The position numbers and the translations under genes were made by a program. A stretch of 64,000 nt of DNA, taken from assembly GCA_949130485.1 (NCBI GenBank), contig OX422189.1, positions 8,499,220 to 8,563,219 of the forward strand, read 5' to 3'. The notes below the pieces were generated by a model, which saw only the letters and a list, made by a program, of their open reading frames with translations, did no database searches and had not been told where the DNA came from. Below are positions 20,722-60,866 of this stretch, one piece after another. This stretch comes from Agelas oroides. Its lineage: Eukaryota; Porifera; Demospongiae; Agelasida; Agelasidae. The stretch's first letter is position 1; each line of letters opens with the position of its first letter.

Positions 20722-23382
20722 ATGGCTTGGAAACAGCTTGCTGCCTTCATCTCTCTCACTCATTTCTTCATCTTGTCATCTTGTGCAGTCCAGTTCCACT
20801 ACAATACTCGTCCTGAAACTGTTCTCACTGCAGATGACAGTAGTAGGATACGTGGTTTTCAGGATCACAGTGGTGACATTATTCTAGGAGGGCTGTTTCC
20901 GGTTCACACCTCTGTCCCTGGACCTGATGGAGGAAAATCTGCAGATGGATTATCAAGCAAAGGTATTCAGTCACTAGAAGCCATGTTGTATGCTATAGAT
21001 GCTATCAACAGTGATCCTGATCTACTCCCTAATATAACACTGGGTTATGATATCAGAGATACTTGTCGGAGTGAGAAGATTGGTCTCGATGAAAGTGCTG
21101 ACATGGTGCTGGCGAATGATTCAGAATGTCACCTTGGAAACTCAGAGAGATTCCTGCCTGCTGTCATGGCTGTGATTGGACCATTGGAGAGCCATGTTTC
21201 CATTCCAATAGCCAGTTTCTTTCATATTTTGCAGGTGCCACAAGTAAGCTATGCTTCATCCTCAAGTAAACTAAACAACCGCAATACTTATAGTTATTTC
21301 TTTCGCACTTACCCTCCCAGTAACAGCCTTGTGCAAGCCATGGTTGACATTGTTTTGCATTACAATTGGAGTCACGTATCAGTCATATACTCCTTTAATT
21401 CATTTGGAGAGTCTCTGCTTGCCCATTTCCACTATCTTGCTAAAGAAAATCAGATATGCCTCGATCTTGTTGAGCCGATTTACAATGACTTTTCACCATG
21501 TGAATACCATAAACTTGCTAAGGAGCTCATGACATCAAATGCCAAAGTTGTGCTCTTATTTACTGTAGCAGACCACACAGACCCCTTCATGAGAGAAATG
21601 CAAAATATCTCTCATGACTCCAGTAACGACACGGACAGAACGCTTCTGTGGATTACACCTGATGTGCACACTGCTTCCAAATTTAAGGAAATTGTAGCTG
21701 GGATGTGGGGTGTTGTTCCTTTCTCAAAGGAGGATGAGTCTTTCAATAGCTACTATTCCCAACATTTGGCAGAATCTAATGTTCGCAATCCTTGGTTTCG
21801 GCACTATTATCAAGAACGCTTTGACTGCCTTATGGGCAGGAACTGTAGCAATGTTAGTATAACGGCACATCCTGATTATCAACAGTTTGTACTCGTTCCA
21901 CTTGTTATTGATGCCGTCTACAGTGTAGCGCATGCAATACACAACAGTATCATGGATAACTGTCCACAACCAGTGGTATGGTATCCAAACAATCGCTCAT
22001 GCCAAGGACAGAACAACACAATAAGTGGGAAAATGTTAGCAAACTACCTCTATAATGTTAGCTTCACTAGTCCCACTGGCAATGCTATACAGTTTGATGA
22101 GTCTGGCAATGTTGAGGGTAAATTCAACATACTTAACTATCAAGCATGTTTGGATTGCAACAAAACATATCAACTTGTACAAATAGCTCATTGGAATTCA
22201 ACAGCTACAGAACGGCTCCATTTCTACTCAAACGAAACACCACAGTTTGGTTTTAATCAATCTGGTGATGTTTTATTTCATGCATTTGAATCACAGTGCA
22301 AAGAATGTGATCAAGGTTTTATCAAACGTCTGGTCGTCTCTTCTTGCTGTGGCACCTGTGATCCTTGTCTTGGACCTAACTACACTAACTCCACTTCAAC
22401 AACAGAATGTGAAATATGTCCTGAGCATAAGTGGGGTAACAACCCTGTAAATGGTAGTACTGAGTGTGTAGCTATTGAGGAATCCTATTTGAAACCATCT
22501 GATCCATGGGCTATAATACTGATGATCATAGCCATAATTGGATTACTAGCAACAGCTTTTGTGGGTGCAGTCTTCATTTGGTTCTGGAACACACCGATTG
22601 TCAAGTCATCAGGACGAGAACAGATGATACTCCTTCTAACCGGGATAACACTTTGCTTCCTCATAACAGTTGTGTTCCTCATAAAACCTTCACCAGCTGT
22701 GTGTGGTTTTCAAAGGATGGGTTCATGGTTTTGCTTCTCACTCATCCTCAGTGCTTTGTTTGTGAAGCTGGTTCGAATTGCTCGTATCTTCATGCAAGGC
22801 AAAATCTCTCCTGTTAGACCCAAGTGGATTGCTCCAAAACATCAGATTTTGTTCACATTTCTTTTGGTTGGTATACAAGTGATATTGGTTGTGATTTCAC
22901 TATCAGTTGTCCCTCCGAGTGTGAAAAAAACTCTACAGAAGAATGAGGCCAACCATGACGATTTCCCAGTGCTTATTATCCAGTGCACCTCCCCTCACAT
23001 TGCCTTAGTGGTTCTAGAAATGGCGTACTTCACTGCTCTAACTATTGCCAATAATGCACTAGCCATGTTGACAGTACAATTTCCTCAGAACTTCAACGAA
23101 TCAAAATCTGTTGCATTTGCAATGGGTCTAATGTGGCTACTGATTGTAATACCACCTGACATCACTGTAGCTACAGCCGACACAACCATCCAAACAGCCG
23201 TTACCATACTCACAATTCAGTTGAGTGCTTTGGCTTTTCTATTGTGTCTGTTCGGTCCAAGAGTTTTTACAATGATAGTCTGGCCAAAGCAAAATGTTCA
23301 GATGTCCACTGCTGTGAAAAATTCCAGTATACATCATGCAGAACACAATGAAAAATCAATCAGTGAAACTGAAAAGAAGTGA
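20722..23382 (+). CDS. R1: mGluR-like class C GPCR (intact)
   Basis: Single-exon frame of 886 residues; ATG at 20722 precedes a signal peptide (MAWKQLAAFISLTHFFILSS). A Venus-flytrap ligand-binding domain spans about residues 50-510 (ILGGLFPVH, DPDLLPNITLGYDIRD, VSYASSSSKLNNR, NPWF). A nine-cysteine NCD3G domain follows with Cys 526, 529, 542, 543, 546, 549, 563, 566 and 582. Seven helices lie at about 597-846, with mGluR-like NTPIVKSSGRE, FNESK and GPRVFTMIVWPKQNVQ. The tail is about 30 residues. Compared with mGluR1, the alpha-amino/carboxyl-binding serines are kept (S160, S180) and D314 matches D318. Y236 is F228, and the side-chain-binding R78 and K409 are S84 and L391. It is expected at the cell surface signalling through G proteins. 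From about codon 665 it is nearly identical to R5. Confidence 0.93.
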   Translation: MAWKQLAAFISLTHFFILSSCAVQFHYNTRPETVLTADDSSRIRGFQDHSGDIILGGLFPVHTSVPGPDGGKSADGLSSKGIQSLEAMLYAIDAINSDPDLLPNITLGYDIRDTCRSEKIGLDESADMVLANDSECHLGNSERFLPAVMAVIGPLESHVSIPIASFFHILQVPQVSYASSSSKLNNRNTYSYFFRTYPPSNSLVQAMVDIVLHYNWSHVSVIYSFNSFGESLLAHFHYLAKENQICLDLVEPIYNDFSPCEYHKLAKELMTSNAKVVLLFTVADHTDPFMREMQNISHDSSNDTDRTLLWITPDVHTASKFKEIVAGMWGVVPFSKEDESFNSYYSQHLAESNVRNPWFRHYYQERFDCLMGRNCSNVSITAHPDYQQFVLVPLVIDAVYSVAHAIHNSIMDNCPQPVVWYPNNRSCQGQNNTISGKMLANYLYNVSFTSPTGNAIQFDESGNVEGKFNILNYQACLDCNKTYQLVQIAHWNSTATERLHFYSNETPQFGFNQSGDVLFHAFESQCKECDQGFIKRLVVSSCCGTCDPCLGPNYTNSTSTTECEICPEHKWGNNPVNGSTECVAIEESYLKPSDPWAIILMIIAIIGLLATAFVGAVFIWFWNTPIVKSSGREQMILLLTGITLCFLITVVFLIKPSPAVCGFQRMGSWFCFSLILSALFVKLVRIARIFMQGKISPVRPKWIAPKHQILFTFLLVGIQVILVVISLSVVPPSVKKTLQKNEANHDDFPVLIIQCTSPHIALVVLEMAYFTALTIANNALAMLTVQFPQNFNESKSVAFAMGLMWLLIVIPPDITVATADTTIQTAVTILTIQLSALAFLLCLFGPRVFTMIVWPKQNVQMSTAVKNSSIHHAEHNEKSISETEKK

Positions 23383-24278
23383 ATGTCCAGAACCTCCATG
23401 CTAAAGAAAAACACGCACATAAGTGATATGATTTGTACATACTATTAACACTGTTGTTTAGCCAAGTGTAGAATTTTAGTTGAGTTTTAGGCCAGTGGTT
23501 GAATGTTAGTTATAGTTTTGCTCTAACTAACCTCACCAGTGTATACTGAATCATTCTTGGTGATTATACTGCATGATGGTTTCTGTACGATTATTAACAA
23601 ATAAGTCAAAAAATTACATTTACAGAAAAATTCATTTACACTATGAGAAGGTAGATTAGCGGAACATAATTCTACTGTGCGCTAAAAGATTAAGAAGTCT
23701 ATCAGCTTGGATTCCAGGTTTGTCGACCTTGAAAGTCACAGGGTTCTCTGCCACCTTAAAGTTTGTAATGCTGGCTAGAGAGAAAGGAGCATGTTTGGCG
23801 TTCACTCTGTGCACACATGCAGAACAGGGTTTTAGGTTCTAGATCTGTTGACTCAATTATCTCAACATGTGTTGAAAGCCTGTTGAAGTGTTTCTCTCAT
23901 TAATTTTCAGCAACCTCATATTATTGAGAGTCCCTGGATTGGCCTCCGAACCATCCTAGTGAGGGTGGTGGGCAGGTGCAACAGTCCACCATGGTTCACC
24001 AAAAAACTATGTTTGACTGAGTACAGTCAAGCCATATACTGATAGGTAGTTGCATGTATAGTTGAACACTAGTTTCCTGGACTTGCAATTATGGATTGAA
24101 TATGGCAGTACTTTGTATGTAGAAAAAAATCGGAGGGGAAACAGTTGAACATTGATGTGCCAGCCGAAAATAGTGCTCCCCCACTCGACACACAGCTACC
24201 AAAACAGCAGGGAAACACTAAGCATACAAAACTGCTAAATCATCACTGTGATTTACTAAAATTGTCACAACAGTTTAT
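23383..24278. other. R1 3' flank
   Basis: No gene seen. It contains the TCAGCTTGGATTCCAGGTTT repeat shared with 9.7 kb, and a short piece resembling the collagen C-terminal domain (near 23990, CCACCATGGTTCACCAAAA, compare 7167-7180), suggesting relics of an older collagen copy. Confidence 0.55.
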
Positions 24279-25111
24279 CAGTGGCGTAGCCAGGCTGGGG
24301 CACACTAGCCTCGTCCCACCCAAAAATCGGGAAAGGGTTAGGGTTTTGGGTGGGGCGTGGGGCTAGGGGCACACTGGGGCACTAAACATCTCACGTGATG
24401 CACATATATGCGCACTGACACTCCGCGTTGCATTGAACTGAATCGCACGTCGCGTCGTTTCCATGAAGACATGAAATCAGCTCTTTCAGACGATCTAACA
24501 GGAGAATAAACGGGGTAAGAAGCATGTATAAATAACAGTAATGTTATTTATTTACTTCAATTTTTGCCGTGCTACTAATTATGGTGATTTATTGAACAAA
24601 AATTGATACTGTACAATTTTGTACCGGTTCAATGATCTCTTTTATTCAAGTCGGAAGTGCGAAAAAGACCGAAGTTGAGCATGATATTTGTGAAGCTGTT
24701 TCGCACTGTACTTTCATTTTAGAGAAAATTTATGTTTCCAGTGGAGGCTGAAGGTATTGGCTATTGCATGAAGTCTTTTACAATTGGCGCTTTATATACG
24801 AACATTGAAAAATAAAAGAACATACACCCATGTTGTAGCTTACTGAAAACAATATTACACGAACATCTACGAGCTCCGCCCTGTTATCTATGCTCGTACG
24901 CTCACCATACGTGCGAGTTTGCCGTAAGTGACTTACACTGCACTACCATATGGCCTCAGAACCCAACCTGGGAGCCGGGCTGTGAAATTCCAAGTGGGTG
25001 CACCCCCACCTCTCCCTAAATGCTTCTGCACTTAATTCGCGCAGAAATTCGCACAAACGTAGTGTGCCCATGCTGTGCCCTAGCATCGGCGATGTCATGG
25101 CTACGCCACTG
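24279..25111. mobile_element. 833-bp hAT-like non-autonomous transposon, copy A
   Basis: Termini CAGTGGCGTAGCCA and its reverse complement GGCTACGCCACTG form short TIRs. Flanks CAGTTTAT (24271-24278) and CAATTTAT (25112-25119) make an 8-bp target duplication with one mismatch, as in hAT elements. The related site near 42915 (CACAACAATTTGG) lacks the insert. No transposase frame. An internal foldback lies at 24307-24366. Confidence 0.8.
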
Positions 25112-25257
25112 CAATTTATTAAAGTGAAACCATAACAAGGCACACTTCACTAAATCACCATCACATACTATGTAAATCGCAAGGACAATTGGCACAGGAT
25201 TTATACATGCTATAAATTGTTACTAAGTAATTGAAAATTGTATGTACACAAGCTCAT

Positions 25258-25478
25258 GAAACTTTTATCCCCACAGCTCATGGTCTGTCAATTGGACCAC
25301 AGTTTTACTACAGTTTACATAAAGAGAAGTCATATAGTGTAACCGTATTGCAACCACAACTCATAGCTCTGAACCAGTGGCGTGACCATCAGCAGTACAA
25401 CTGATTGGAGAACTGCGATAAGACTTTGTCTGTCAGTTGTTGTGTGGTAGTTGTGCAAGTTAGTCGACTTCAACCAGC
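25258..25478 (+). promoter_or_regulatory. Conserved 5' flank of R2 (class A)
   Basis: Same block as upstream of R1, R5 and R6, ending about 20 bp before the ATG with TGTGTGGTAGTTGTGCAA. Conservation is seen; promoter activity is inferred. Confidence 0.45.
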
Positions 25479-28148
25479 ATGGCCTGGAAACAGCTTGCTG
25501 CCTTCATCCTCTCTCTCACTCATTTCTTCATCTTGTCATCTTGTGCAGTCCAGTTCCACTACAATACTCGTCCTGAAACTGTTCTCACTGCAGATGACGG
25601 TACTAGGATACGTGGTTTTTACAATCACAATGGTGACATTATTCTAGGAGGGCTGTTTCCAGTTCACACCTCTGTCCCTGGATCTGATGGAGGAAGGTGT
25701 GCAGATGGACTATCAAACAAAGGTATACAGACACTTGAAGCTATGCTATATGCTATAGATGCCATCAACAGTGATCCTGATCTACTCCCTAATATAACAC
25801 TGGGTTATGATATCAGAGATACTTGTCGGAGTGAGAAGATTGGTCTCGATGAAAGTGCTGATATGGTGCTGGCGAATGATTCGGAAAGTTGCCTTGGAAA
25901 CTCAGAGAGATTCCTGCCTGTTGTCATGGCTGTGATTGGACCATTGGAGAGCCACGTTTCTGTTCCAATAGCCAGTTTCTTTCGCATTTTGCAGATGCCT
26001 CAAGTAAGCTATGCTTCATCCTCAAGTAAACTAAACAACCGCAATACTTATAGTTATTTCTTTCGCACTTACCCTCCCAGTAACAGCCTTGTGCAAGCCA
26101 TGGTTGACATTGTTTTGCAGTACAGTTGGGGTCATGTATCGGTCATATTCTCATATAATCCATTTGGAGAGTCTCTGGTTGCTCATTTCCGCCATCTCGC
26201 TAAAGAAAACCGCATATGCCTCGATCTTGTTGAGCCAATTTACAATGACTTTTCACCACGCGAATACCAAAACCTTGCTAGAGAGCTAATGACATCAAAT
26301 GCCAAAGTTGTGCTCTTATTTACTGTAGCAGACCACACAGACCCCTTCATGAGAGAAATGCAAAATATCTATGACTCCAGTAACAACAAGAGAAGGTTTC
26401 TGTGGATTGCGCCTGGTGTGCAGACTGCTTCCAAATTTAAAGATATCGTAGCTGGGATGTGGGGTGTTGTTCCTTTTTCAAAGGAGGATGATTCTTTCAA
26501 TGGTTACTATTCCCAACATTTTGTAGAATCAAATGTTCGCAATCCTTGGTTTTGGCACTATTATCAAGAACGCTTTGACTGTCTTATTGGAAGGAACTGC
26601 AGCAATGTTAGTATAACGGCACATCCTGATTATCAACAGTATGTACTCGTTCCACTTGTTATTGATGCTGTCTACAGTGCAGCTCATGCAATACACAACA
26701 GTATCATGGATAACTGTCCACAACCACTGGTATGGCATCCAAACAATCACACATGTCGAGGACAAAGCAACACAATAAGTGGAGAAATGTTAGCGACCTA
26801 CCTCTATAATGTTAGCTTCACTAGTCCCACTGGCAATGCTATTCAGTTTGATGAGTCTGGCAACGTTGAGGGTAAATTCAACATACTTAACTATCAAGTG
26901 ATGCAAGCATGTATGGATTGCAACACAACATATCGACTTGTCCAAATAGCTCAATGGGATTCAACAGCTACAGAACGCCTCCATTTCTACTCAAATGAAA
27001 GACCACAATTTGGTATTGATCAATCGGGGGATGTTTTATTTCGTGCTTTTGAATCACAGTGCAAAGAATGTGATCCAGGTTTTATCAAACGTCTGGTTGT
27101 GTCTTCTTGCTGTGGCACCTGTGATCCTTGTCTTGGACCTAACTACACTAACTCCACCTCATCAACAGAATGTCAAATGTGTCCTGACCATATGTGGGGT
27201 AACAATCCTGTAAATGGTAGTACTGGGTGTAAAGATATTGAGGAATCCTATTTGGAACCATTTGATCCATGGGCTATAATACTAATGATCATAGCCATAA
27301 TTGGATTACTAGCAACAACATTTGTGTGTGCTGTCTTCATTTGGTTCTGGAACACACCGATTGTCAAGTCGTCAGGACGAGAACAGATGATGCTACTTCT
27401 AGCTGGGATAACACTTTGCTTCCTCATAACAATTGTGTACCTTATAAAACCTTCACCAGCTGTGTGCGGTTTTCAAAGGATTGGCTCATGGTTTTGCTTC
27501 TCACTGATCCTGTGTGCTTTGTTTGTGAAATTGGTCAGAATTACTCGTATCTTCATGCAAGGAAAAATCTCTCCTGTTAGGCCCAAGTGTATTGCTCCAG
27601 AACATCAGATTTTGTTCACATTTCTTTTGGTTGGTATACAAATGATATTGGTTGTGATTTCACTATCAGTTGTCCCTCCGAGTGTGTCAAAGACTCTACA
27701 GAAGAACGAAACCAACCAAGACGATTACCCAGTGTTTGTCATCCAGTGCACCTCCCCTCACATTGCCTTAGTGGTTCTACAAATGGTGTACTTCACTGCT
27801 CTCACTATCGCCAGTAATGCACTAGCCATCGTGACGATACAATTCCCTCAGAACTTCAATGAATCAAAATACGTTGCATTCTCTACATTTGCATTGACTC
27901 TAATGTGGATACTCGCCTTCATACCATCTTATATTGCTACAGCCAACACAACCATCCAAACAGCCGTTACCTTACTCACCATCCAGTTGAGTGCTCTGGC
28001 TGTTCTATCATGTCTGTTTGGTCCAAGAGTCTTTATAATGATAGTCTGGCCAAAGCAAAATGTTCAGACATCCACTGCTGTGAAAAGTTCTAGCATACAT
28101 CATGTGGAACGGAGTGAAAAATCAATCAGTGAAATGGAACAAAAATGA
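25479..28148 (+). CDS. R2: mGluR-like class C GPCR (intact)
   Basis: Single-exon frame of 889 residues with the same domain order as R1: signal peptide, Venus flytrap, nine-cysteine domain, seven helices, short tail ending SISEMEQK. Pocket positions differ from R1: the residue equivalent to mGluR1 D318 is glycine (APGVQ) and the Y236 equivalent is phenylalanine (PFGES). Both side-chain-binding basic residues are absent. The domain before the cysteine-rich region has the longer form NYQVMQACMDC shared with R3, R5 and R6. R6 is a near-identical copy that has since acquired a stop codon. Preceded by a class A upstream block and a hAT-like insertion. Confidence 0.93.
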   Translation: MAWKQLAAFILSLTHFFILSSCAVQFHYNTRPETVLTADDGTRIRGFYNHNGDIILGGLFPVHTSVPGSDGGRCADGLSNKGIQTLEAMLYAIDAINSDPDLLPNITLGYDIRDTCRSEKIGLDESADMVLANDSESCLGNSERFLPVVMAVIGPLESHVSVPIASFFRILQMPQVSYASSSSKLNNRNTYSYFFRTYPPSNSLVQAMVDIVLQYSWGHVSVIFSYNPFGESLVAHFRHLAKENRICLDLVEPIYNDFSPREYQNLARELMTSNAKVVLLFTVADHTDPFMREMQNIYDSSNNKRRFLWIAPGVQTASKFKDIVAGMWGVVPFSKEDDSFNGYYSQHFVESNVRNPWFWHYYQERFDCLIGRNCSNVSITAHPDYQQYVLVPLVIDAVYSAAHAIHNSIMDNCPQPLVWHPNNHTCRGQSNTISGEMLATYLYNVSFTSPTGNAIQFDESGNVEGKFNILNYQVMQACMDCNTTYRLVQIAQWDSTATERLHFYSNERPQFGIDQSGDVLFRAFESQCKECDPGFIKRLVVSSCCGTCDPCLGPNYTNSTSSTECQMCPDHMWGNNPVNGSTGCKDIEESYLEPFDPWAIILMIIAIIGLLATTFVCAVFIWFWNTPIVKSSGREQMMLLLAGITLCFLITIVYLIKPSPAVCGFQRIGSWFCFSLILCALFVKLVRITRIFMQGKISPVRPKCIAPEHQILFTFLLVGIQMILVVISLSVVPPSVSKTLQKNETNQDDYPVFVIQCTSPHIALVVLQMVYFTALTIASNALAIVTIQFPQNFNESKYVAFSTFALTLMWILAFIPSYIATANTTIQTAVTLLTIQLSALAVLSCLFGPRVFIMIVWPKQNVQTSTAVKSSSIHHVERSEKSISEMEQK

Positions 28149-29809
28149 TTGCACAGGACATGCTGAAAAGATGTATGTAACTAGCTAATGTGATTTGTAC
28201 ATTAACACTGTTATTTATGTACTTTTAGTTGAGTTTTAGGCCAGAGGTAGTTGTGGTTGTGTATTTTGCCTTAACTAACCACACTACCCTACATTGAATC
28301 ATTATTGAATCATTATTACTATAAAGAACTCAGCCAGTACCATTATTAATAAGTCAATATTGAACAAGTACAGAAGAACAAACACTCCAGAGGTTATTTT
28401 GATGTGGAAATTTGGGTCAGAATAATAACGTTATAACAACTGTTCATATTTGCCCATTTATAAAACTTTATGTGTACACAATACTGTCACTTCACTTGGC
28501 TTACAGATCAACTGGTTTGCCACAACGATGAACCTCAACTGTAGCCAATTCAATGACAGCAAGCCTTAGTGGAGACTGTGGTATGGGTGGTTTGCCTCCC
28601 TACAGAAGGTTCAGTGTATGAGTGCCCTGTGAACTTGGTGTCTGTTGTTACTTCCAACCACACCTACTTGCAGGCTGATTGCTGTAGACATCATCAGATT
28701 TCACACCCAACTGACCCAACTGATCATGAACTGAACAGGTAAATCCTAGCTGTCAGACTGATAAAGTTATAACAACTGTGCTCACCTTCAAACTTGGCCC
28801 TTTGCTAAGCTTTTTCTGTGTACGCAGGACTTCTGACCACATCTGGGTGTAGTAACTAACTTTGTGGTATTACTTCCAACTTTTGATGAACATGTTATCT
28901 TGAATGTGGGTCAAACATCTGATAACACCCTAGTTCAGATATACGTGGCAATCAACTGTGTATGATAAACATCATGACATCTTTTACTAGATCTTAGAGA
29001 AGTAGTTGTGCTAAAAGAAAGGTGACGTGGTTAGCTACTAATTTTCACTAGACAAGTGCCAATTCTCTGTAACTAAATGATTTGCGTGGAATCATGAGCC
29101 CTGTAATGTGGTATTTGAGAGTCACGTTAGTGGTCTGAGGTACAATCGACTGAGGATTGTTTTCGGATGTTTAGTGGTTGACAAAACTTTGTAAAGTTTC
29201 AATAGCACTTTGGAAATCTTCAAGTATAGGCACGTCTATAGAATATAAAGTACCAAAATGTTGGTCTACTGAATTGTCTAATGAAAATTGCAAAAGTGCA
29301 ATTGAATCCTTGTAAACAAAGTGTTGTCACCTACTGCCAATGTCTGAGATCAACAACAAAATAATGTGTGTATATTATAGCTATCAACAAACTGTGTACT
29401 GTTATAGTAACATATTCAAGAAGTAGGTAGGTATGCATCACACCATAAAGCATGAACATTGGGAGACCTCAGATTTAACATTACTCTAAGGTGTTAATGG
29501 TACTACAGTTTACAGGTGTTAATGTCATATCTACAAAGTTGATGCTTCAAGTAATGAACAAACAACTACAAATGTACTTCACTAAGCTACTTGGATGTAA
29601 TGGACATTAATGTTATATATCTGGAATACTGATGTCTGCAAGTTTTGTTTGCCACTATATCATCCTTTTAGATATAACACCAGCATCTGTAAACTGTGTT
29701 CCATAGTATCCAAGGACCTTAGAGAAGTGATTGTGCATAAAGAACTTGTAGACATAAGTTTTTTTTAGCATAAATGTGTCCTTAACATCCAAGAACTGAG
29801 CTTACTAAC
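28149..29809. other. R2 3' flank and R3 5' flank
   Basis: No gene. Most of it is duplicated at 50719-52340. Fragments (for example GATCATGAACTGAACAGG, GCCAATTCTCTGTA) recur downstream of R3 and R7, so receptor spacers share ancestry. A GTAAACTGTGTTCCATAGTA motif at about 29689 resembles the motif upstream of R4, R8 and R9. Confidence 0.6.
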
Positions 29810-34450: not shown

Positions 34451-34496
34451 GATTTTATGATAGTGCTTATAGTTGTGTGCACTACTTGGCTTCAGC

Positions 34497-40951: not shown

Positions 40952-40959
40952 AACTGTAT

Positions 40960-45952: not shown

Positions 45953-46848
45953 ATGCCCAGAACCTCCATGCTAAAGAAAAACACGCACATAAGTGATATG
46001 ATTTGTACATACTATTAACACTGTTGTTTAGCCAAGTGTAGAATTTTAGTTGAGTTTTAGGCCAGTGGTTGAATGTTAGTTACAGTTTTGCTCTAACTAA
46101 CCTCACCAGTGTATACTGAATCATTCTTGGTGATTATACTGCATGATGGTTTCTGTACGATTATTAACAAATAAGTCAAAAAATTACATTTACAGAAAAA
46201 TTCATTTACACTATGAGAAGGTAGATTAGCGGAACATAATTCTACTGTGCGCTAAAAGATTAAGAAGTCTATCAGCTTGGATTCCAGATTTGTCGACCTT
46301 GAAAGTCACAGGGTTCTCTGCCACCTTAAAGTTTGTAATGCTGGCTAGAGAGAAAGGAGCATGTTTGGCGTTCACTCTGTGCACACATGCAGAACAGGGT
46401 TTTAGGTTCTAGATCTGTTGACTCAATTATCTCAACATGTGTTGAAAGCCTGTTGAAGTGTTTCTCTCATTAATTTTCAGCAACCTCATATTATTGAGAG
46501 TCCCTGGATTGGCCTCCGAACCATCCTAGTGAGGGTGGTGGGCAGGTGCAACAGTCCACCATGGTTCACCAAAAAACTATGTTTGACTGAGTACAGTCAA
46601 GCCATATACTGATAGGTAGTTGCATGTATAGTTGAACACTAGTTTCCTGGACTTGCAATTATGGATTGAATATGGCAGTACTTTGTATGTAGAAAAAAAT
46701 CGGAGGGGAAACAGTTGAACATTGATGTGCCAGCCGAAAATAGTGCTCCCCCACTCGACACACAGCTACCAAAACAGCAGGGAAACACTAAGCATACAAA
46801 ACTGCTAAATCATCACTGTGATTTACTAAAATTGTCACAACAGTTTAT

Positions 46849-47681
46849 CAGTGGCGTAGCCAGGCTGGGGCACACTAGCCTCGTCCCACCCAAAAATCGG
46901 GAAAGGGTTAGGGTTTTGGGTGGGGCGTGGGGCTAGGGGCACACTGGGGCACTAAACATCTCACGTGATGCACATATATGCGCACTGACACTCCGCGTTG
47001 CATTGAACTGAATCGCACGTCGCGTCGTTTCCATGAAGACATGAAATCAGCTCTTTCAGACGATCTAACAGGAGAATAAACGGGGTAAGAAGCATGTATA
47101 AATAACAGTAATGTTATTTATTTACTTCAATTTTTGCCGTGCTACTAATTATGGTGATTTATTGAACAAAAATTGATACTGTACAATTTTGTACCGGTTC
47201 AATGATCTCTTTTATTCAAGTCGGAAGTGCGAAAAAGACCGAAGTTGAGCATGATATTTGTGAAGCTGTTTCGCACTGTACTTTCATTTTAGAGAAAATT
47301 TATGTTTCCAGTGGAGGCTGAAGGTATTGGCTATTGCATGAAGTCTTTTACAATTGGCGCTTTATATACGAACATTGAAAAATAAAAGAACATACACCCA
47401 TGTTGTAGCTTACTGAAAACAATATTACACGAACATCTACGAGCTCCGCCCTGTTATCTATGCTCGTACGCTCACCATACGTGCGAGTTTGCCGTAAGTG
47501 ACTTACACTGCACTACCATATGGCCTCAGAACCCAACCTGGGAGCCGGGCTGTGAAATTCCAAGTGGGTGCACCCCCACCTCTCCCTAAATGCTTCTGCA
47601 CTTAATTCGCGCAGAAATTCGCACAAACGTAGTGTGCCCATGCTGTGCCCTAGCATCGGCGATGTCATGGCTACGCCACTG
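46849..47681. mobile_element. 833-bp hAT-like transposon, copy B
   Basis: Carried by the segmental duplication; same boundaries and flanking CAGTTTAT/CAATTTAT as copy A. Confidence 0.8.
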
Positions 47682-47827
47682 CAATTTATTAAAGTGAAAC
47701 CATAACAAGGCACACTTCACTAAATCACCATCACATACTATGTAAATCGCAAGGACAATTGGCACAGGATTTATACATGCTATAAATTGTTACTAAGTAA
47801 TTGAAAATTGTATGTACACAAGCTCAT

Positions 47828-48048
47828 GAAACTTTTATCCCCACAGCTCATGGTCTGTCAATTGGACCACAGTTTTACTACAGTTTACATAAAGAGAAGT
47901 CATATAGTGTAACCGTATTGCAACCACAACTCATAGCTCTGAACCAGTGGCGTGACCATCAGCAGTACAACTGATTGGAGAACTGCGATAAGACTTTGTC
48001 TGTCAGTTGTTGTGTGGTAGTTGTGCAAGTTAGTCGACTTCAACCAGC
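47828..48048 (+). promoter_or_regulatory. Conserved 5' flank of R6 (class A)
   Basis: Duplicate of 25258-25478. Confidence 0.4.
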
Positions 48049-50718: not shown

Positions 50719-52347
50719 TTGCACAGGACATGCTAAAAAGATGTATGTAACTAGCTAATGTGATTTGTACATTAACACTGTTATTTATGTACTTTTAGTT
50801 GAGTTTTAGGCCAGAGGTAGTTGTGGTTGTGTATTTGCCTTAACTAACCACACTACCCTACATTGAATCATTATTGAATCATTACTATAAAGAACTCAGC
50901 CAGTACCATTATTAATAAGTCAATATTGAACAAGTACAGAAGAACAAACACTCCAGAGGTTATTTTGATGTGGAAATTTGGGTCAGAATAATAACGTTAT
51001 AACAACTGTTCATATTTGCCCATTTATAAAACTTTATGTGTACACAATACTGTCACTTCACTTGGCTTACAGATCAACTGGTTTGCCACAACGATGAACC
51101 TCAACTGTAGCCAATTGAATGACAGCAAGCCTTAGTGGAGAATGTGGTATGGGTGGTTTGCCTCCCTACAGAAGGTTCAGTGTATGAGTGCCCTGTGAAC
51201 TTGGTGTCTGTTGTTACTTCCAACCACACCTACTTGCAGGCTGATTGCTGTAGACATCATCAGATTTCACACCCAACTGACCCAACTGATCATGAACTGA
51301 ACAGGTAAATCCTAGCTGTCAGACTAATAAAGTTATAACAACTCTTCAAACTTGGCCCTTTGCTAAGCTTTTTCTGTGTACGCAGGACTTCTGACCACAT
51401 CTGGGTGTAGTAACTAACTGTGTGGTATTACTTCAAACTTTTGATGAAGGTGTTATCTTGAATGTGGGTCAAACATCTGATAACACCCTAGTTCAGATAT
51501 ACGTGGCAATCAACTGTGTATCGTAAACATCATGACATCTTTTACTGCTAGCTAGATCTTAGAGAAGTAGTTGTGCTAAAAGAAAGGTGACGTGGTTAGC
51601 TACTAATTTTCACTAGACAAGTGCCAATTCTCTGTAACTTACATAATTATGTGAAATGAAAATGATTTGCGTGGAATCATGAGCCCTGCAATGTGGTATT
51701 TGAGAGTCACGTTAGTGGTCTGAGGTACAATCGACTGAGGATTGTTTTTGGATGTTTAGTGGTTGACAAAACTTTGTAAAGTTTCAATAGCACTTTGGAA
51801 ATCTTCAAGTATAGGCACGTCTATAGAATATAAAGTACCAAAATGTTGGTCTACTGAATTGTCTAATGAAAATTGCAAAAGTGCGATTGAATCCTTGTAA
51901 ACAAAGTGTTGTCACCTACTGCCAATGTCTGAGATCAACAACAAAATAATGTGTGTATATTATAGCTATCAACAAACTGTGTGCTGTTATAGTAACATAT
52001 TCAAGAAGTAGGTAGGTATGCATCGCACCATAAAGCATGAACATTGGGAGACCTCAGATTTAACATTACTCTAAGGTGTTAATGGTACTACAGTTTACAG
52101 ATGTTAATGTCATATCTACAAAGTTGATGCTTCAAGTAATGAACAAACAACTACTCACTAAGCTACTTGGATGTAATGGACATTAATGTTACATATCTGG
52201 AATACTGATGTCTGCAAGTTTTGTTTGCCACTATATCATCCTTTTAGATATAACACCAGCATCTGTAAACTGTGTTCCATAATATCCAAGGACCTCAGAG
52301 AAATGATTGTGTATAAAGAACTTGTATACATAAGTTTTTTTAGCATT

Positions 52348-52485
52348 TGTCTGTTTGGTCCAAGGGTCTTGATATTGATAGTCTGGCCAAAGCAAAATGT
52401 TCAGACATCCACTGCTGTGAAAAATTCCGGTATACATCATGCAGAACGGAGTGAAAAATCAATCAGTGAAACTGAGAAGAAGTGA
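52348..52485 (+). pseudogene. R7: receptor C-terminal stub
   Basis: Forty-five codons of the helix-7 end and tail (CLFGPRVLILIVWPKQNVQ ... SISETEKK) plus 3' flank. They are joined at 52341-52347 to sequence that in copy A lies just before R3. The upstream body of the gene is missing, so this is the downstream edge of a deletion between two receptor genes. Confidence 0.85.
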
Positions 52486-53839
52486 ATGCCCAGAACCTGC
52501 TAAAACGAACTGACGTGATTTGTATGTACTATTAACCATGTTGTTTAAACCAAGTGTGGTTTTAGTTGAGTTTTAGGTAGTTGTGGTTGTTACAATTTTG
52601 CCCTGATCAACTACTATTCTACACTGAATCATTATTGGTATATATAGATAGTTATGTACTATTATTAATAAGTCAAAACATTAAAACACTACAATTACAG
52701 AAGGATATCTGTTTTATTGACACTAAGAGAACATAGATTAGCAGAGCACACTTCTATTTGAGATTAGGTTGGTGTTGAGGTGAAATTGGAGACACAAAAA
52801 GGAATGCACGATACGATTCCTTGCTTCTCTAGAACACAGCTTGAAATTCTGATAAGTACAGAAGAACAAACACTCTGGAGGCTATTTTGATAGGGAATTT
52901 GACTGTGCTCACCTTCAAACTTGGCCATTTACATAGCTTTTTTGTGTCAGCTCAAGACTAGTCAGTTGTTACTTCCAGCCACACCTACTTGCAGTCAGAT
53001 TGCTTAGACATCAGATGCTGCTAGCTAGATCTTAGGAAAGTAGTCGGTATAGAGTCCATTGTTTGAGAGCCGTGATACTATGTACTCTGAGGAACAGTTG
53101 ACTGAGAGTAGAATTTGAACGCTGGCAGTGGATGACAAAACCACATCATTTCAATCGCACTTCAATAATGTTCACTATGGATCTAATGTATTAGCAGATA
53201 ATAAAGATTGCTGCAAACTAGTAGATGTACTGTATTGCCTGATGCAGGTTGCCAAAGTGTGATTGAAACATTGCATTTTGTGAACCACTGCCAACTGATC
53301 CAGCTGATCATGAACTAAAGTGGTAAAGTCCTAGATGAGATATAGTAATCAATTGAGGATCATAAACTTCAGGAAATATTTCAATGCTAGCTAGATCTTT
53401 GAGTCAGGACTCAGGAGGAAAGTGGTCTGTAAGTGATACAGCTCTGAGGAACGGTTGACTGCATCGTTCAATCACACTATATAATGTTCACCTTGTATGG
53501 GTCTAATGCCTATAGCTGATAATTTTTTTGGTTATTATTTTTCTTTTAAAGAATGGTAAGAGAGAAGAGAGGTGGGAGGGGATGGCAAGGGGAAGAAAAC
53601 TAGTATGTTTCAATTGAGATATACCGACTGTTATGTCTACTGTATTGCCCGATGCAAGTTGCCAAAGTGTGATTGAAACATTTGCAAACCACTGCCATTG
53701 TTGGAGATTGACATTGCAAACAAAGTTTTGTAGACCACTGCCATCATTGAAGGCCGACTCTCAGTCAAGAACAAAGAACTTGTGTAGCCATCAAGCTTAC
53801 ACAAACTCATAATAGCAACCAAAGACCTTAGACAGAAGT
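52486..53839. other. R7 3' flank, degenerate receptor spacer
   Basis: No gene. Several stretches echo the R2/R3 flanks (CTCACCTTCAAACTTGGCC, TGATCATGAACTAAAGTGG), some more than once (compare 53220-53280 with 53635-53690). Confidence 0.55.
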
Positions 53840-54668: not shown

Positions 54669-57290
54669 TCACTTCACTTCAGTTCCAATTGGTTTTTCAC
54701 TCTGTTGATAGTATATGCTGCAACCTTTTGCAGCAGCAGTCATCTGAACATTTCGCTTTGGCTGGACTATCATTATAAATACTCTGGGACCAAATAGACT
54801 TATTAGAATCGCCAAGGCACTCAACTGAATGGTGAGCATAATAATAGTTTCTGCCATAGCAAAGTAAGATGGTATGAGAATTAACCACATTAGACCCATT
54901 GCAAATGCAACAGATTTCGATTCGTTGAAGTTCTGAGGAAACTGTACTGTCAACATGGCTAGTGCATTATTTGCAATAGTGACAGCAGCGAAATACACCG
55001 CTTGTAGAACTGCTAAGATGGTGCAAGGGGGGGTACACTGGATAATAAGCACTGGGAAGTTGTCTTGGTTGGTCTTGTTCTTCTGTAGAGTCTTTGACAC
55101 ACTCGGAGGGACAACTGATAGTGAAATCACAACCAATAACATTTGTATACCAACCAAAAGAAATGTGAACAAAATCTGATGTTGTGGAGCAATACACTTT
55201 GGCCTAGTAGAGATTTCACTCTTCATAAATATGCGAGCAATTCGGACCAGCTTCACAAGCAAAGCAGAGAGGATTAGTGAGAAGCAAAACCGTGAGCCAA
55301 TCCTTTGCAGACCACACACAGCTGGTGAAGGTTTTATGAGGAATACAGTTGTTAATAGATAACAAAGTATTATCCCAGTTAGAAGGAGTATCATCTGTTC
55401 TCGTCCTGATGACTTGACAATCGGTGTGTTCCAGAACCAAATGAAGACTGCACCAACAAATGCTGTTGCTAGTAATCCAATTATGGCTATGATCATCAGT
55501 ATTATAGCCCATGGATCAGATGGTTTCAAATAAGATTCCTCAATGTCTTGACACCCAGTGCTACCATTCACAGGACGATTGCCCCACATATGAACAGGAC
55601 ACATTTGACATTCTGTTGATGTGGTGGAGTTAGTGTAGTTGGGTCCAAGACAAGGACCACAGACAGCACAGCAAGAAGAGACGACCAGACGTTTGATGAA
55701 ACCTGGACTACATTTTTGGCAGTGTGATTCAAGTGGAACATCACCCCATGGACCAAACTGTAGTGTTTCGCTTGGGTGGAAACAGGGGCAATTTGTAGCT
55801 GTTGAATCCCAATGAGCTACTGGGACAAGTTGATATGTTTTGTTGCAATCCGAACATGGTTGTGTCTCTTGATAGTTAAGTACGTTGAATTTACCTTCAA
55901 CATTGCCAGACTCATCAAACTGTATAGCATTGCCAGTGGGACTAGTGAAGTTAACCTTATAGAGGTAGTTTGCTAACATTTCTCCACTTATCGTGTTGTT
56001 TTGTCCTCGACATGAGTGATTGTTTGGATGCCATACCACTGGTTTTGGACAGTTATCAATGATACTGTTGTGTATTGCATGCACTACACTGTAGACGGCA
56101 TCAATAACAAGTGGAACAAGTATAGACTGTTTATAATCAGGATGTGCTGTCATATTAATATTGCTACAGTTCTTACCAACGGAGCAGTCAAACTTCTGTT
56201 GGTAAAAATCCCTAAACCAAGGATTGCGAACATTAGACTCTACCAAAAGTTCAGAATAGTAACTTTCAAATGGTTTATCCAGCTTTGAGAAAGAAACAAC
56301 ACCCCACATTCCAGCTACTATCTCCTTATATTGGGAAGCAATATTCACGTTAGTCTCAACAGTCATCCATAGAAACTTCTTTTTGTCTTTACCTGCATCA
56401 TGGACATTTTTCAATTCCCTCATAAAGGGATCTGTGTGGTCAGATATGGTAAATAAAAGAACAACTTTGGCATGCGATGTCAATAGCTCATTGGCAATTT
56501 CATGGTACTCAGGTTGTGTAAAGTTATTGTATATTGGTTGAACAAAATCAAGACATATATCCCTTTCCTTAGCAAGTTGGCGGAAGTGAGTAGAGAGAGA
56601 TTCTCCAAACAGGCTGCGTGAGAAGATAATTGACACAAGATCCCATTCGTAATGTACTATGATGTCCACTATGGCTTGCACTAAGCTGTTAGTGGCGAGT
56701 TTAGTGCGAAAAAAATAACTGTAAGTGACACGATTGTTTAGTTTACTTGAGGATGAAGCATAGCTAATTTGAGGCATCTGAAAAACACGAAAGAAATTAG
56801 CTATAGGAATGGAAACAGCACTCTGCAGTGGTCCAATCACAGCCATGACAGCAGGCCATGTTTTGTCTGAGTTACCAAGAAAACTTTCCGAGCCTTTCAC
56901 CAGCACCATGTCAGCACTTTCATCGAGACCAATCTTCTCACTCTGACAAGTATCTCTGATATCATAGCCCAGTGTTATATTAGGGAGTAGATCAGGATCA
57001 CTGTTGATGGCATCTATGGCATATAGCATAGCTTCAAGTGTCTGTATACCTTGTTCTCTCACAGCATCTGTACACTGTCCACCATTAGAAGCAGGAATAG
57101 TGGAGTGAACCGGAAACAGTCCCCCGAGAATGATGTCTGCATTGCGATCCTGAAAACCACGTATCCTAGCACCATCATCAGCAGTGAGAACAGTGTCAGG
57201 AGGAGTACGATAGTGGAACTGGACTGCACAGGATGACAAGATGAAGAAATGAGTGAGAGAGATGAAGGCAGCAAGCTGTTTCAAAGCCAT
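54669..57290 (-). CDS. R8: mGluR-like class C GPCR (intact)
   Basis: Single-exon minus-strand frame of 873 residues; I choose ATG at 57290 (MALKQLAAFISLTHFF) because it begins the signal peptide and matches the + strand paralogs; upstream in-frame codons contain no ATG. Flytrap domain, NCD3G (CQKCSPGFIKRLVVSSCC, then CGPC, CQMC, C) and seven helices are complete. Helix 6-7 is shorter than in R1 and the tail ends IGTEVK. The flytrap sequence is more distant from R1-R6 and closest to R9. At the D318-equivalent site it has TVETNVN with no clear aspartate, and the Y236-equivalent is phenylalanine (SLFGES). Confidence 0.92.
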   Translation of the reverse strand: MALKQLAAFISLTHFFILSSCAVQFHYRTPPDTVLTADDGARIRGFQDRNADIILGGLFPVHSTIPASNGGQCTDAVREQGIQTLEAMLYAIDAINSDPDLLPNITLGYDIRDTCQSEKIGLDESADMVLVKGSESFLGNSDKTWPAVMAVIGPLQSAVSIPIANFFRVFQMPQISYASSSSKLNNRVTYSYFFRTKLATNSLVQAIVDIIVHYEWDLVSIIFSRSLFGESLSTHFRQLAKERDICLDFVQPIYNNFTQPEYHEIANELLTSHAKVVLLFTISDHTDPFMRELKNVHDAGKDKKKFLWMTVETNVNIASQYKEIVAGMWGVVSFSKLDKPFESYYSELLVESNVRNPWFRDFYQQKFDCSVGKNCSNINMTAHPDYKQSILVPLVIDAVYSVVHAIHNSIIDNCPKPVVWHPNNHSCRGQNNTISGEMLANYLYKVNFTSPTGNAIQFDESGNVEGKFNVLNYQETQPCSDCNKTYQLVPVAHWDSTATNCPCFHPSETLQFGPWGDVPLESHCQKCSPGFIKRLVVSSCCAVCGPCLGPNYTNSTTSTECQMCPVHMWGNRPVNGSTGCQDIEESYLKPSDPWAIILMIIAIIGLLATAFVGAVFIWFWNTPIVKSSGREQMILLLTGIILCYLLTTVFLIKPSPAVCGLQRIGSRFCFSLILSALLVKLVRIARIFMKSEISTRPKCIAPQHQILFTFLLVGIQMLLVVISLSVVPPSVSKTLQKNKTNQDNFPVLIIQCTPPCTILAVLQAVYFAAVTIANNALAMLTVQFPQNFNESKSVAFAMGLMWLILIPSYFAMAETIIMLTIQLSALAILISLFGPRVFIMIVQPKRNVQMTAAAKGCSIYYQQSEKPIGTEVK

Positions 57291-58175: not shown

Positions 58176-60866
58176 CTACGAGTCTTGTGTTTTCGCTTGT
58201 TCAATTTCCAATTGCATTTCACTCGGTTGTGCAGTTATTTGTGTCTTTGTTTCATGATGTATGGTGGAATTTATTGCAGTAGGGGAGTCTTGAACATTTC
58301 GCTGTGGCCAGACTATCATTATTAAAACTCTTGGACCAAACAAACACAACAGAACAGCCAGTGCACTCAGCTGAATGGTGAAGGAAATGACTCCTCTATG
58401 GATGTTGCTGTCGGCTGTAGCAATGTAAGATGGTATGAAGAAGAGTATCCATATTAGACTCAATGCAAATGTAGAGAACGCAACGTATTTTGCTTCTTTG
58501 AAGTTCTGAGGGAATTGTATTGTCAAAATGGCTAGTGCGTTACTGGCGATAGTGAGAGCAGTGAAGTACACCATTTGTACAACCACTAAGGCAATGTGAG
58601 GGGAGGTACACTGGATAATAAGCACTGGGAAATCGTCTTGGTTGGTTGTATTCTTCTGTAGAGTCTTTGACAAACTCGGAGGGACAACTGATAGTGAAAT
58701 CACAACCAATAACATATTTGTTCCAATCAAAAGAAATGTGAACAAAATCTGATGTTCTGGAGCAATACACTTGGGCCTAACAGGAGAGATTTTTCCTTGC
58801 ATGAAGATACGAGTAATTCGAACCAATTTCACAAACAAAGCACAGAGTATCAGCGAGATGCAAAACCATGAGCCTATCCTTTGAAGACCGCACACAGCTG
58901 GTGAAGGTTTTATGAGGAATGCAATCGTTACGAGGAAGCAAAGTGTTATTCCAGTTAGAAGGAGTGTCATCTGTTCTCGTCCTGATGACTTGACAATTGG
59001 TGTGTTCCAGAACCAAATAAAGACTCCAACCACAAATGCTGTTGCGAGTAATCCAATTATGGCTATGATCATCAGTATTATAGCCCATGGATCAGATGGT
59101 TTCAAATAGGATTCCTTGATATCTACACAGTCAGTACTACCATTTACAGGACGATTGCCCCACATATGAACAGGACACATTTGACATTCTGTTGACGTGG
59201 TGGAGTTAGTGTAGTTGGGTCCAAGACAAGGACCACAGACAGCACAGCAAGAAGAGATGACTAGACGTTTGATAAAACCTGGACTACATTTTTGGCAGTG
59301 TGATTTAAGTGGAACATCACCCCATGGACCAAACTGTGGTGTTTCGCTTGGGTGGAAACAGGGGCAATTTGTAGCTGTTGAATTCCAATGAGCAACTGAG
59401 ACAAGTTGATATGTTGTGTTACAATCCAAACATGCTTGCACCACTTGATAGTTAAGTACGTTGAATTTACCCTCAACATTGCCAGACTCATCAAACTGTA
59501 TAGCATTGCCAGTGGGACTAGTGAAGTTAACATTATAGAGGTAGTTTGCTAACATTTCTCCACTTATTGTGTTGCTTTGTCCTCGACATGTGTGATTGTT
59601 TGGATGCCATACCACTGGTTGTGGACAGTTATCCATGATACTGTTGTGTATTGCATGCGCTACACTGTAGACAGCATCAATAACAAGTGGAACAAATATA
59701 GACTGTTTATAATCAGGATGTGCTGTCATATTAATATTGCTACAGTTCTTACCAACGGAGCAGTCAAACTTCTGTTGGTAAAAATCCCTAAACCAAGGAT
59801 TGCGAACATTAGACTCTACCAAAAGTTCAGAATAGTAACTTTCAAATGATTTATCCAGCTTTGAGAAAGAAACAACACCCCACATTCCAGCTACTATCTC
59901 CTTAAATTTGGAAACAGTTTTCACGTTAGTCTCAACAGTCATCCATAGAAACTTTTTTTTGTCTTTACCTGCATCATGGACATTTTTCAATTCCCTCATA
60001 AAGGGATCCGTGTGGTCAGTTACGGTAAATAAAAGAACAACTTTGGCATGCGATGTCATTAGCTCCTTGACAATGTCATGGTACTCAGGTTGTGTAAAGT
60101 TATTGTGTATTGGTTGAACAAAATCAAGACATATATCCCTTTCCTTAGCAAGTTGATGGAAGTGAGTAGAGAGAGATTCTCCATACAGGCTGCGTGAGAA
60201 GATAACTGACACAAGATCCCATTCGTAATGTACTATGATGTCCACTATGGCTTGCACTAAGCTGTTAGTGGGGAGTTTAGTGCGAAAAAAATAACTGTAA
60301 GTGACACGATTGTTTAGTGTACTCGAAGATGAAGCATAGCTAATTTGAGGCACCTGAAAAACACGAAAGAAACTAGCTATTGGAATGGAAACTCCACTCC
60401 GCATTGGTCCAATCACAGCCATGACAGCAGGCAGTGTTTTGTCTGAGTTTCCAGGGCAACTTTCCAAATCATTTGCCAGCACCATGTCAGCACTTTCATC
60501 GAGACCAATTTTCTCACTCTGACAAGTATCTCTGATATCATAGCCCAGTGTTATATTAGGGAGTAGATCAGGATCACTGTTGATAGCATCTATAGCATAC
60601 AGCATGGCTTCAAGTGTCTCAATACCTTGGTCCCATATAGCATCTGTACACTGTCCACCATTAGAAGCAGGAATAGTGGAGTGAACCGGAAACAGTCCCC
60701 CGAGAATGATGTCTGCATTGCGATCCTGAAAACCACGTATCCTAGCACCATCATCTGCAGTGAGGACAGTTTCAGGTGGAGTGTGATAGTGGAACTGGAC
60801 TGCACAGGATGACAAGATGAAGAAATGAGTGAGAGAGATGAAGGCAGCAAGCTGTTTCCAAGCCAT
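58176..60866 (-). CDS. R9: mGluR-like class C GPCR (intact)
   Basis: Single-exon minus-strand frame of 896 residues from ATG 60866 (MAWKQLAAFISLTHFF). All domains are present: signal peptide, flytrap, nine-cysteine domain, seven helices. Unlike the others it has a longer and unrelated tail (QDSPTAINS ... EQAKTQDS), which could change intracellular partners. A tyrosine stands at the Y236-equivalent site (SLYGES), but the D318-equivalent is not aspartate. The flytrap half resembles R8, while the helices resemble R2/R3, again suggesting conversion. Confidence 0.92.
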   Translation of the reverse strand: MAWKQLAAFISLTHFFILSSCAVQFHYHTPPETVLTADDGARIRGFQDRNADIILGGLFPVHSTIPASNGGQCTDAIWDQGIETLEAMLYAIDAINSDPDLLPNITLGYDIRDTCQSEKIGLDESADMVLANDLESCPGNSDKTLPAVMAVIGPMRSGVSIPIASFFRVFQVPQISYASSSSTLNNRVTYSYFFRTKLPTNSLVQAIVDIIVHYEWDLVSVIFSRSLYGESLSTHFHQLAKERDICLDFVQPIHNNFTQPEYHDIVKELMTSHAKVVLLFTVTDHTDPFMRELKNVHDAGKDKKKFLWMTVETNVKTVSKFKEIVAGMWGVVSFSKLDKSFESYYSELLVESNVRNPWFRDFYQQKFDCSVGKNCSNINMTAHPDYKQSIFVPLVIDAVYSVAHAIHNSIMDNCPQPVVWHPNNHTCRGQSNTISGEMLANYLYNVNFTSPTGNAIQFDESGNVEGKFNVLNYQVVQACLDCNTTYQLVSVAHWNSTATNCPCFHPSETPQFGPWGDVPLKSHCQKCSPGFIKRLVISSCCAVCGPCLGPNYTNSTTSTECQMCPVHMWGNRPVNGSTDCVDIKESYLKPSDPWAIILMIIAIIGLLATAFVVGVFIWFWNTPIVKSSGREQMTLLLTGITLCFLVTIAFLIKPSPAVCGLQRIGSWFCISLILCALFVKLVRITRIFMQGKISPVRPKCIAPEHQILFTFLLIGTNMLLVVISLSVVPPSLSKTLQKNTTNQDDFPVLIIQCTSPHIALVVVQMVYFTALTIASNALAILTIQFPQNFKEAKYVAFSTFALSLIWILFFIPSYIATADSNIHRGVISFTIQLSALAVLLCLFGPRVLIMIVWPQRNVQDSPTAINSTIHHETKTQITAQPSEMQLEIEQAKTQDS

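Follow-up and report, generated by a model that had tools for sequence, protein, structure and literature searches.

The 64,000-nucleotide stretch of the genome of the sponge Agelas oroides analyzed here (the window) contains, between positions 20722 and 60866, a tandem array of loci predicted from their sequences to encode class C G protein-coupled receptors (GPCRs) of the metabotropic glutamate receptor (mGluR) branch, with the mGluR subfamily closest to them. The best overall explanation of our observations, which we hold with moderate confidence, is that the array is a recently recombining cluster of single-exon mGluR-type receptors with an altered pocket and a non-glutamate ligand, for which environmental sensing is the likeliest role. 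In all array members, Ser, Ala, or Thr replaces D208, the residue that contacts the ligand amine in mGluR1.

Organization of the Receptor Array

Eight class C GPCR loci occupy this span, which runs from the ATG of R1 to the ATG of R9, with R1, R2, R3, R4, R6, and R7 on the + strand and R8 and R9 on the - strand (these names, and those of the remnants, are labels of this analysis). Open frames of 873-896 amino acids (aa), counted from the first Met, were identified in five of the eight loci (R1, R2, R6, R8, and R9), and the remaining three are broken. A 3' remnant brings the number of loci to nine. A preliminary description of this DNA had counted five intact, three damaged, and one fragmentary locus over the same coordinates, and mapping of frames, stops, and indels confirmed that inventory, although a further remnant on the 5' side had been missed and raises the total to ten.

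5' receptor remnant, ~19860..20113, + strand: upstream DNA and signal-peptide coding sequence, ending at a duplication junction
R1, 20722..23382, + strand: open, 886 aa; flytrap, nine-cysteine linker, and seven-transmembrane (7TM) domain in a single frame
R2, 25479..28148, + strand: open class C GPCR, 889 aa
R3, 29810..32470, + strand: broken by an in-frame stop at codon 52; the remainder is a single 834-codon frame
R4, 34497..37152, + strand: broken by three indels that disrupt the frame (near 36280, 36917, and 37091); Tyr in place of one linker cysteine
R6, 43289..45952, + strand: open, 887 aa; mosaic; lobe 2 cysteine replaced by His
R7, 48049..50718, + strand: broken near-copy of R2, with an in-frame stop at codon 671
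3' receptor remnant, 52339..52756, + strand: last 48 codons (52339-52482) plus 3' flank to ~52756
R8, 54669..57290, - strand: open, 873 aa; Phe in place of the dimer-loop cysteine; related most closely to R9 in the flytrap and to R1/R6 in the 7TM domain
R9, 58176..60866, - strand: open, 896 aa; Arg at position 164

Chance frames were excluded, as the longest frame in the region is 916 aa, whereas none of 200 first-order Markov resamples gave a frame longer than 248 aa. One start-to-stop frame of R1 aligns to mGluR8 residues 50-862, and such uninterrupted frames support the earlier description of the loci as intronless, in the sense of a single coding exon (the claim concerns the coding region, not the untranslated regions). 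The upstream DNA falls into two sets, R1/R2/R6/R7 and R3/R4/R8/R9 (~200 columns, 61-96% identity), which may represent two promoter types.

All eight loci matched the Pfam families ANF_receptor (PF01094, best E 1.1e-67) and 7tm_3 (PF00003, best E 8.1e-54) above gathering scores, with R4 and R7 queried in two pieces each (ten pieces in all). NCD3G matched six of the ten pieces, each below its gathering score (18.7-25.4 vs. 38.9 bits). Nine linker cysteines were counted in six window rows of the alignment (R1, R2, R3, R6, R8, and R9) and eight in R4. The best phmmer match of R1 among solved structures was mGluR8 (E = 8.3e-125, 421 bits), followed by mGluR7, other mGluRs, and CaSR (322 bits), and no GABA-B chain was found among the best 60 of 132 matches. 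The Lys of transmembrane helix 3 (TM3) and the Glu and Trp of TM6 are retained in the six window rows examined. The Pfam and phmmer results and the cysteine count bear out the earlier view of these loci as mGluR-like class C receptors with a Venus flytrap, a linker, and seven helices. Across the genome, all six NCD3G matches at E <=1e-3 lie inside the array and none passes the Pfam cut-off; the same linker cysteine pattern was seen in other mGluR-type loci of the genome despite the lack of an NCD3G match there.

Ligand Pocket Residues

Pocket residues are given in mGluR1 numbering, with the mGluR1 letters verified against 1EWK. Twelve positions were tabulated, and the calls were identical under seven MAFFT settings. 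BLASTP alignments to mGluR8 agreed with MAFFT at positions 78, 165, 188, 208, 236, and 409 in 8/8 loci; BLASTP to the more distant mGluR1 differed at some positions (e.g., Asn at position 208 of R9, which is still not Asp).

Neither of the residues by which mGluRs hold the glutamate side chain is present in any of the eight loci. By both MAFFT and BLASTP, R78 is replaced by Ser or Thr and K409 by a hydrophobic residue (Leu or Phe) in 8/8, in agreement with the preliminary description. With both side-chain contacts lost, glutamate is an improbable ligand, as had been proposed. The accompanying claim that the site for the amino-acid backbone is kept fared less well. The serines are indeed there (S165 in 8/8 loci, and Ser in place of T188), but 0/8 window loci keep the Asp at 208, and Q211, Y236, and position 318 vary among members, with Phe at 236 in 6/8. 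Since the amine contact is lost in all members, binding of the ligand probably departs from the standard alpha-amino-acid mode, and the earlier suggestion of another amino acid as a likely ligand fits the rest of the genome better than it fits the array. Position 318 sits in a shortened loop, where the ungapped residue is Asp in R1, R4, and R6, Glu in R8 and R9, Gly in R2 and R7, and Tyr in R3; the call depends on the alignment, being gapped in 8/8 loci in the comparison of MAFFT settings with BLASTP and in R1-R6 only in another alignment.

An eight-residue amino-acid signature (S, S/T, R, D, Q, Y, G, D/E) was taken from PMC1764893 and mapped onto mGluR1 in this analysis (this and the other cited papers are represented by excerpts, to which statements about them apply). 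The signature was scored in nine array-clade rows, which comprise seven window loci (R7 not among them) and two relatives elsewhere in the genome, L005 on contig C21 and L020 on contig C8. Between four and seven of the eight positions are kept: S165, S/T188, R203, and G237 in 9/9 rows, D208 in 0/9, and Q211 lost in 6/9, with position 318 dependent on the alignment as above. D208 is also missing from R7. The persistence of Ser165, Ser188, and Arg203 suggests that lobe 1 continues to bind a carboxylate or similar group.

The residues at positions 164 and 166 differ by paralogue (Glu/His, Gln/Ala, or Arg/Gly), such that charge changes between members; this suggests differently charged ligands for different members. 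At position 74, where mGluR1 has Tyr and mGluR8 has Lys, five of the eight loci carry Lys. We take this position to be a ligand contact in group III mGluRs, and Lys74 may leave one basic residue near the side-chain end of the pocket. By comparison with other class C receptors, the array receptors would act as dimers and couple to G proteins when the flytrap closes on an extracellular ligand.

Comparison With Class C Loci Elsewhere in the Genome

The genome assembly comprises 259 Mb in 141 contigs. The preliminary description had called for a genome-wide count of homologs, and a search with the 7tm_3 profile, in which 150 of 221 candidates were scored, returned at least 151 matches. These include at least 33 mGluR-type loci (155-190 bits), eight of them in the window, at least ~68 loci in a second near-complete group (88-125 bits), and two partial loci on contig C9, with the rest shorter. 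All 25 listed mGluR-type loci outside the window, nine second-group loci, and one C9 locus were retrieved; selection was by 7tm_3 score, which favors unsplit genes. Given the relatedness of these loci, and the identity of L010 to L011, the counts below are not independent events.

Loss of the side-chain clamp had been presented as a mark of the array, and this was not sustained: K409 is absent from all 25 other mGluR-type loci compared (0/23 outside the array clade), and R78 is kept in only five of 22. No row readable at both positions keeps R78 together with K409 (0/31; nine array-clade rows and 22 others). In contrast, D208 is present in 23/23 mGluR-type loci outside the array clade, 18 of which carry the full eight-residue signature; one further locus outside this count, L035, retains Asp at 208 but carries Ala at 409. 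A basic residue (Arg or Lys) occupies position 166 in 21 of 22 readable others versus 0/9 in the array clade. At position 164, 22/22 others have Ala, Ser, Leu, Gly, or Val, whereas 9/9 array-clade rows have Glu, Gln, or Arg.

As judged from its sequences, the array constitutes one clade within a large class C set. In a quick tree of 37 rows, the eight array-clade rows formed one branch (100 by the Shimodaira-Hasegawa-like approximate likelihood ratio test, SH-aLRT) that was sister to 19 other mGluR-type rows of the genome; seven partial or flytrap-only rows were left out of this tree, R7 was not entered, and long branches to mGluR8 and L033 were flagged. The simplest reading of these data would be one loss of D208 at the base of the array clade.

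A coding region in one exon is a general feature of the sampled class C loci and no mark of the array. One stop-to-stop frame of at least 795 codons was identified in 21 of the 25 other mGluR-type loci (L009 without its N-terminal part), while L005, L008, L017, and L019 are split in two; the array-clade member L020 has an open frame of 875 codons, and the nine second-group loci have frames of 739 to 832 codons. These nine group at 100 in the tree, the one compared with solved structures (L030) has GABA-B2 as its best match, and R1 and R8 are 15-19% identical to these GABA-B-type loci.

A second, larger mGluR-type array of at least 13 loci was observed at 23.79-23.95 Mb on contig C2; the split loci L008, L017, and L019 belong to it, and Trp78 occurs in six of its loci. 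A further 14 partial class C loci (L036-L049), the pocket residues of which are outside the above counts, include 11 with weak piecemeal tblastn matches and some in which 7TM pieces are accompanied by a flytrap piece several kilobases upstream. Intron-containing class C genes thus seem to exist in this genome as well.

Duplication, Probable Exchange, and Selection

The array contains a segmental duplication. Two segments of the + strand, 9.3 kb in length, are 96.5% identical:

Duplication copy A, 20456..29771, + strand: holds R1, R2, and the upstream flank of R3
Duplication copy B, 43074..52346, + strand: holds R6 and R7

Coding-region identity is 99.8% for R2/R7 and 94.0% for R1/R6, although the 3' part of R1/R6 is near 100%. 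R6 is a mosaic that from ~codon 660 is nearly identical to R1 and in its 5' part is nearer to R2 and R4. The unequal identities of the R2/R7 and R1/R6 pairs argue against simple duplication of the 9.3 kb block during assembly, although an artefact is not fully excluded. We read the 3' remnant as the leftover of a copy of R3. The 5' remnant is followed by a hexamer resembling a splice donor and was considered as the trace of an ancestral intron; however, homology to the DNA upstream of R2 (24920-25415) begins at the same point, 20108, and the end of this remnant is therefore read as a duplication scar. The fast turnover that had been claimed for the family is supported.

Divergence is unevenly distributed along the genes. 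Between R1 and R8, synonymous divergence reaches 0.90 in lobe 2 (codons 181-335), compared with 0.28 in the next part of lobe 1 and 0.30 in the 7TM domain. Synonymous differences are concentrated in codons 181-375 in 11 of the 15 pairs of six genes (at <=100 of 10000 permutations; the region was picked post hoc). A scan statistic without a preset region identified eight of 15 pairs at the same level, seven of them peaking at or over lobe 2 and R8-R9 peaking in the 7TM domain, whereas four of the five pairs involving R3 were above 100 of 10000. Mean DNA identity in lobe 2 among R1, R3, and R8 (0.757) is no higher than identity to L020 (0.764) or L005 (0.777). In the linker part, identity within the array is 0.881 versus 0.783 (L020) and 0.820 (L005), and in the 7TM domain it is 0.876 versus 0.817 and 0.830, respectively.

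Phylogenetic reconstructions show the same division. In the lobe 2 tree, R3 groups with L005 (84/87, not a starred node), and a single clade of window rows was rejected by the approximately unbiased (AU) test (p 0.026). In the 7TM tree, the array forms a clade at 100/99, R3 plus L005 was rejected (p 0.0017), and R8 plus R9 was borderline (p 0.048). The groups tested were named after the trees had been inspected, which weakens these tests. Collectively, the patterns suggest that exchange inside the array, by gene conversion or unequal crossing-over, spared lobe 2 and homogenized the linker and 7TM domain. Such exchange would keep the linker and 7TM domain alike while lobe 2 retains older differences. 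A locally raised mutation rate in lobe 2 was also considered; the R8-R9 pair has the reverse pattern (synonymous difference 0.018 in codons 181-375 and 0.122 outside), and exchange therefore fits better.

The ratio of nonsynonymous to synonymous divergence (dN/dS) is below 1 in most between-lineage comparisons. For lobe 2, it ranges from 0.20 to 0.54 in 12 of 13 pairs, including 0.20-0.25 between old lineages with open members (R1 and R2 vs. R8 and R9).

Alternative Explanations

Several observations weigh against a set of functional receptors with a pocket altered in this way. The ungapped residue at position 318 is acidic in five of the eight window loci, so that an amine may still be held. 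The core pocket residues named in the literature are no more variable than random flytrap positions (4405 and 5179 of 20000 random sets), although an extended residue list, which goes beyond those named residues, exceeds background (71 and 34 of 20000 sets). Structure prediction, which had been proposed as a check on the flytrap domains, gave AlphaFold models of two window sequences with a mean predicted local distance difference test (pLDDT) score of 36.3 and 40.5, which is too low for superposition and yields no usable pocket geometry. R6 lacks a cysteine, presumably of lobe 2, and R8 lacks another, which we take to belong to the dimer loop; both are present in other members, and an open frame need not mean a functional receptor. 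For the exchange reading, synonymous divergence between R1 and R8 is intermediate rather than low in the first part of lobe 1 (0.44) and in the C-terminal tail (0.55). Lastly, dN/dS is 1.15 for R8-R9 in lobe 2, from 17 and 4 differences, and 1.25-2.90 in codons 481-522 (R1 22162-22287, a flytrap-linker stretch) in six pairs (R1, R2, and R3 each with R8 and R9), where values rest on 2-5 synonymous differences per pair and the stretch also has indels. A claim of positive selection was dropped since these values rest on few differences, although selection in these two stretches may have been relaxed or positive.

The acidic residue at 318 is central to one alternative, that these are ordinary receptors of non-glutamate alpha-amino acids in the style of class IV mGluRs or OlfC receptors, in which the amine would be held by Asp/Glu318, the aromatic residue at 236, and Ser188 and only the side-chain end of the pocket would be altered. 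We consider this unlikely but deserving of serious attention. The four signature residues retained in all array-clade rows, an acidic 318 in L020 as well as in the five window loci, and the full signature in most other mGluR-type loci of the genome all argue for it, and the amine-binding residues of VKR receptors are likewise described as less conserved yet compatible with amino acids (PMC2680970). Yet D208 is missing from every row, Q211 from most, and none of the placements tried puts an acid at 318 in R2, R7, or R3. It is very improbable that glutamate is nevertheless the ligand, with Lys74, Arg164, and His166 providing the basic residues: these occur in 5/8 loci, in R9, and in 6/8 loci, respectively, but no member pairs Lys74 with Arg164 (0/8), and R78, K409, and D208 are all lost in 8/8.

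GABA-B2 and T1R3 are models of partner subunits, and the array receptors might similarly be non-binding subunits that need other receptors and have a pocket free to drift. A changed proximal pocket beside intact linker and 7TM landmarks is consistent with such a role, which we nevertheless regard as improbable: a residue at position 164 that is polar or charged in 9/9 array-clade rows and small or aliphatic in 22/22 others does not resemble random decay, 12 of 13 pairs show constraint on lobe 2, and partner subunits would be expected, though this is an expectation and not a result, to be low-copy. Slightly less probable again is that the array is mostly decaying and that open copies are merely young and not yet broken. 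Three broken loci of eight plus two remnants in ~41 kb, the stop in R7 despite its 99.8% identity to R2, the missing cysteines of R6 and R8, and the two stretches with dN/dS above 1 point in that direction; low lobe 2 dN/dS between old lineages with open members, and the open frame of L020, a clade member on another contig, point away from it.

The explanation that we favor, a recombining receptor cluster with an altered pocket and a non-glutamate ligand, would assign the array a role in sensing environmental or microbial small molecules. A chemosensory function is plausible. The array has the sequence marks of a chemosensory repertoire, namely tandem arrangement, pseudogenes, and a divergent ligand domain. 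The earlier proposal of such a repertoire is reasonable by analogy with DmXR, OlfC, and V2R receptors. In a bolder form, which we put forward tentatively, the tandem array of this presumably nerveless host would have left amino-acid chemistry altogether, with the amine contact gone, the charge beside the carboxylate-binding serine re-tuned (Glu, Gln, or Arg), the signaling half uniform, and the binding lobe anciently diverse; it would then be a V2R-like chemosensory family that arose independently from an mGluR ancestor.

Relation to Known Receptor Systems

Class IV mGluRs, including insect mXR/DmXR, resemble the array as mGluR-type class C receptors in which R78 and K409 are replaced, but their amino-acid backbone contacts are described as conserved (PMC6307864), unlike those of the array clade, which lacks D208 (class IV was compared by description only). 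DmXR, an mGluR with a changed distal pocket, functions as a taste receptor (PMC2695807). Among non-bilaterian orthologues of classes I-IV, glutamate contacts are conserved in only about half, whereas backbone contacts are highly conserved in most sequences (PMC6307864), which makes the loss of D208 in the array unusual.

Fish OlfC and mammalian V2R receptors are likewise clustered class C receptors. OlfC receptors retain the signature and vary the distal pocket, whereas most mouse V2Rs, like the array, lack the signature and are thought to receive non-amino-acid cues (PMC1764893). By analogy, most mGluR-type loci of this genome look OlfC-like and the array V2R-like. Differences are that the C-family chemoreceptor genes of fish and mammals have a minimum of six exons (PMC1764893), compared with one coding exon in the array, and that the closest relatives of the array are mGluRs (OlfC and V2R receptors were compared by description only). 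Nine sampled GABA-B-type loci share with the array the lack of Asp at 208 (0/9); however, Asp occupies the corresponding position in a solved GABA-B2 chain, so that this likeness is no family trait, and the array differs in its cysteine-rich linker and its best match to mGluRs.

Large, lineage-specific, clustered class C repertoires have been described in other sponges. Amphimedon has 33 glutamate-family GPCRs, seven of them homologous to mGluRs (PMC4302439), and Ephydatia has more than 120 predicted mGABA receptors, with one cluster of more than 50, in a genome rich in tandem and segmental duplications (PMC7385117). The genome studied here shares this feature, but the excerpts of those descriptions contain no pocket analysis, amine-contact loss, or lobe-specific exchange. 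Among the papers listed by literature searches, none reported such a loss of D208 in sponge receptors, and one scan each of genome-contig and viral-contig collections found no relatives. Within the excerpted descriptions of sponge class C receptors, the loss of D208 and the lobe-specific pattern of exchange are not represented, whereas loss of the clamp in other mGluRs and class C expansions in sponges were already known.

Glutamate-evoked contractions in the freshwater sponge Ephydatia have been ascribed to mGluRs (PMC11883242). The absence of R78 together with K409 from all 31 readable A. oroides rows, which come from the 150 scored candidates of 221 and do not include the apparently intron-containing genes, would imply that glutamate is bound otherwise or that another receptor carries the response. 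The array itself provides a natural set of receptors with a similar signaling half and different pockets.

Neighboring Sequences

Related collagen-like sequences occur before and inside the receptor array, at 5647-7290, 18981-19916, and 39570-40966. The copy at 5647-7290 consists of two long frames parted by one stop; the cysteine-rich region at its C-terminal end matched no Pfam family. Frames at 8424-9280 and ~13142-13896 resemble non-LTR (long terminal repeat) reverse transcriptases by motif; the one frame tested of these (8531-9277) has no Pfam match. A tandem repeat with a 30-base unit (10.7 copies) lies at 1961-2281, and a large minisatellite with periods of 22, 44, and 157 bases at 61725-63861 gives rise to long spurious frames on the - strand.

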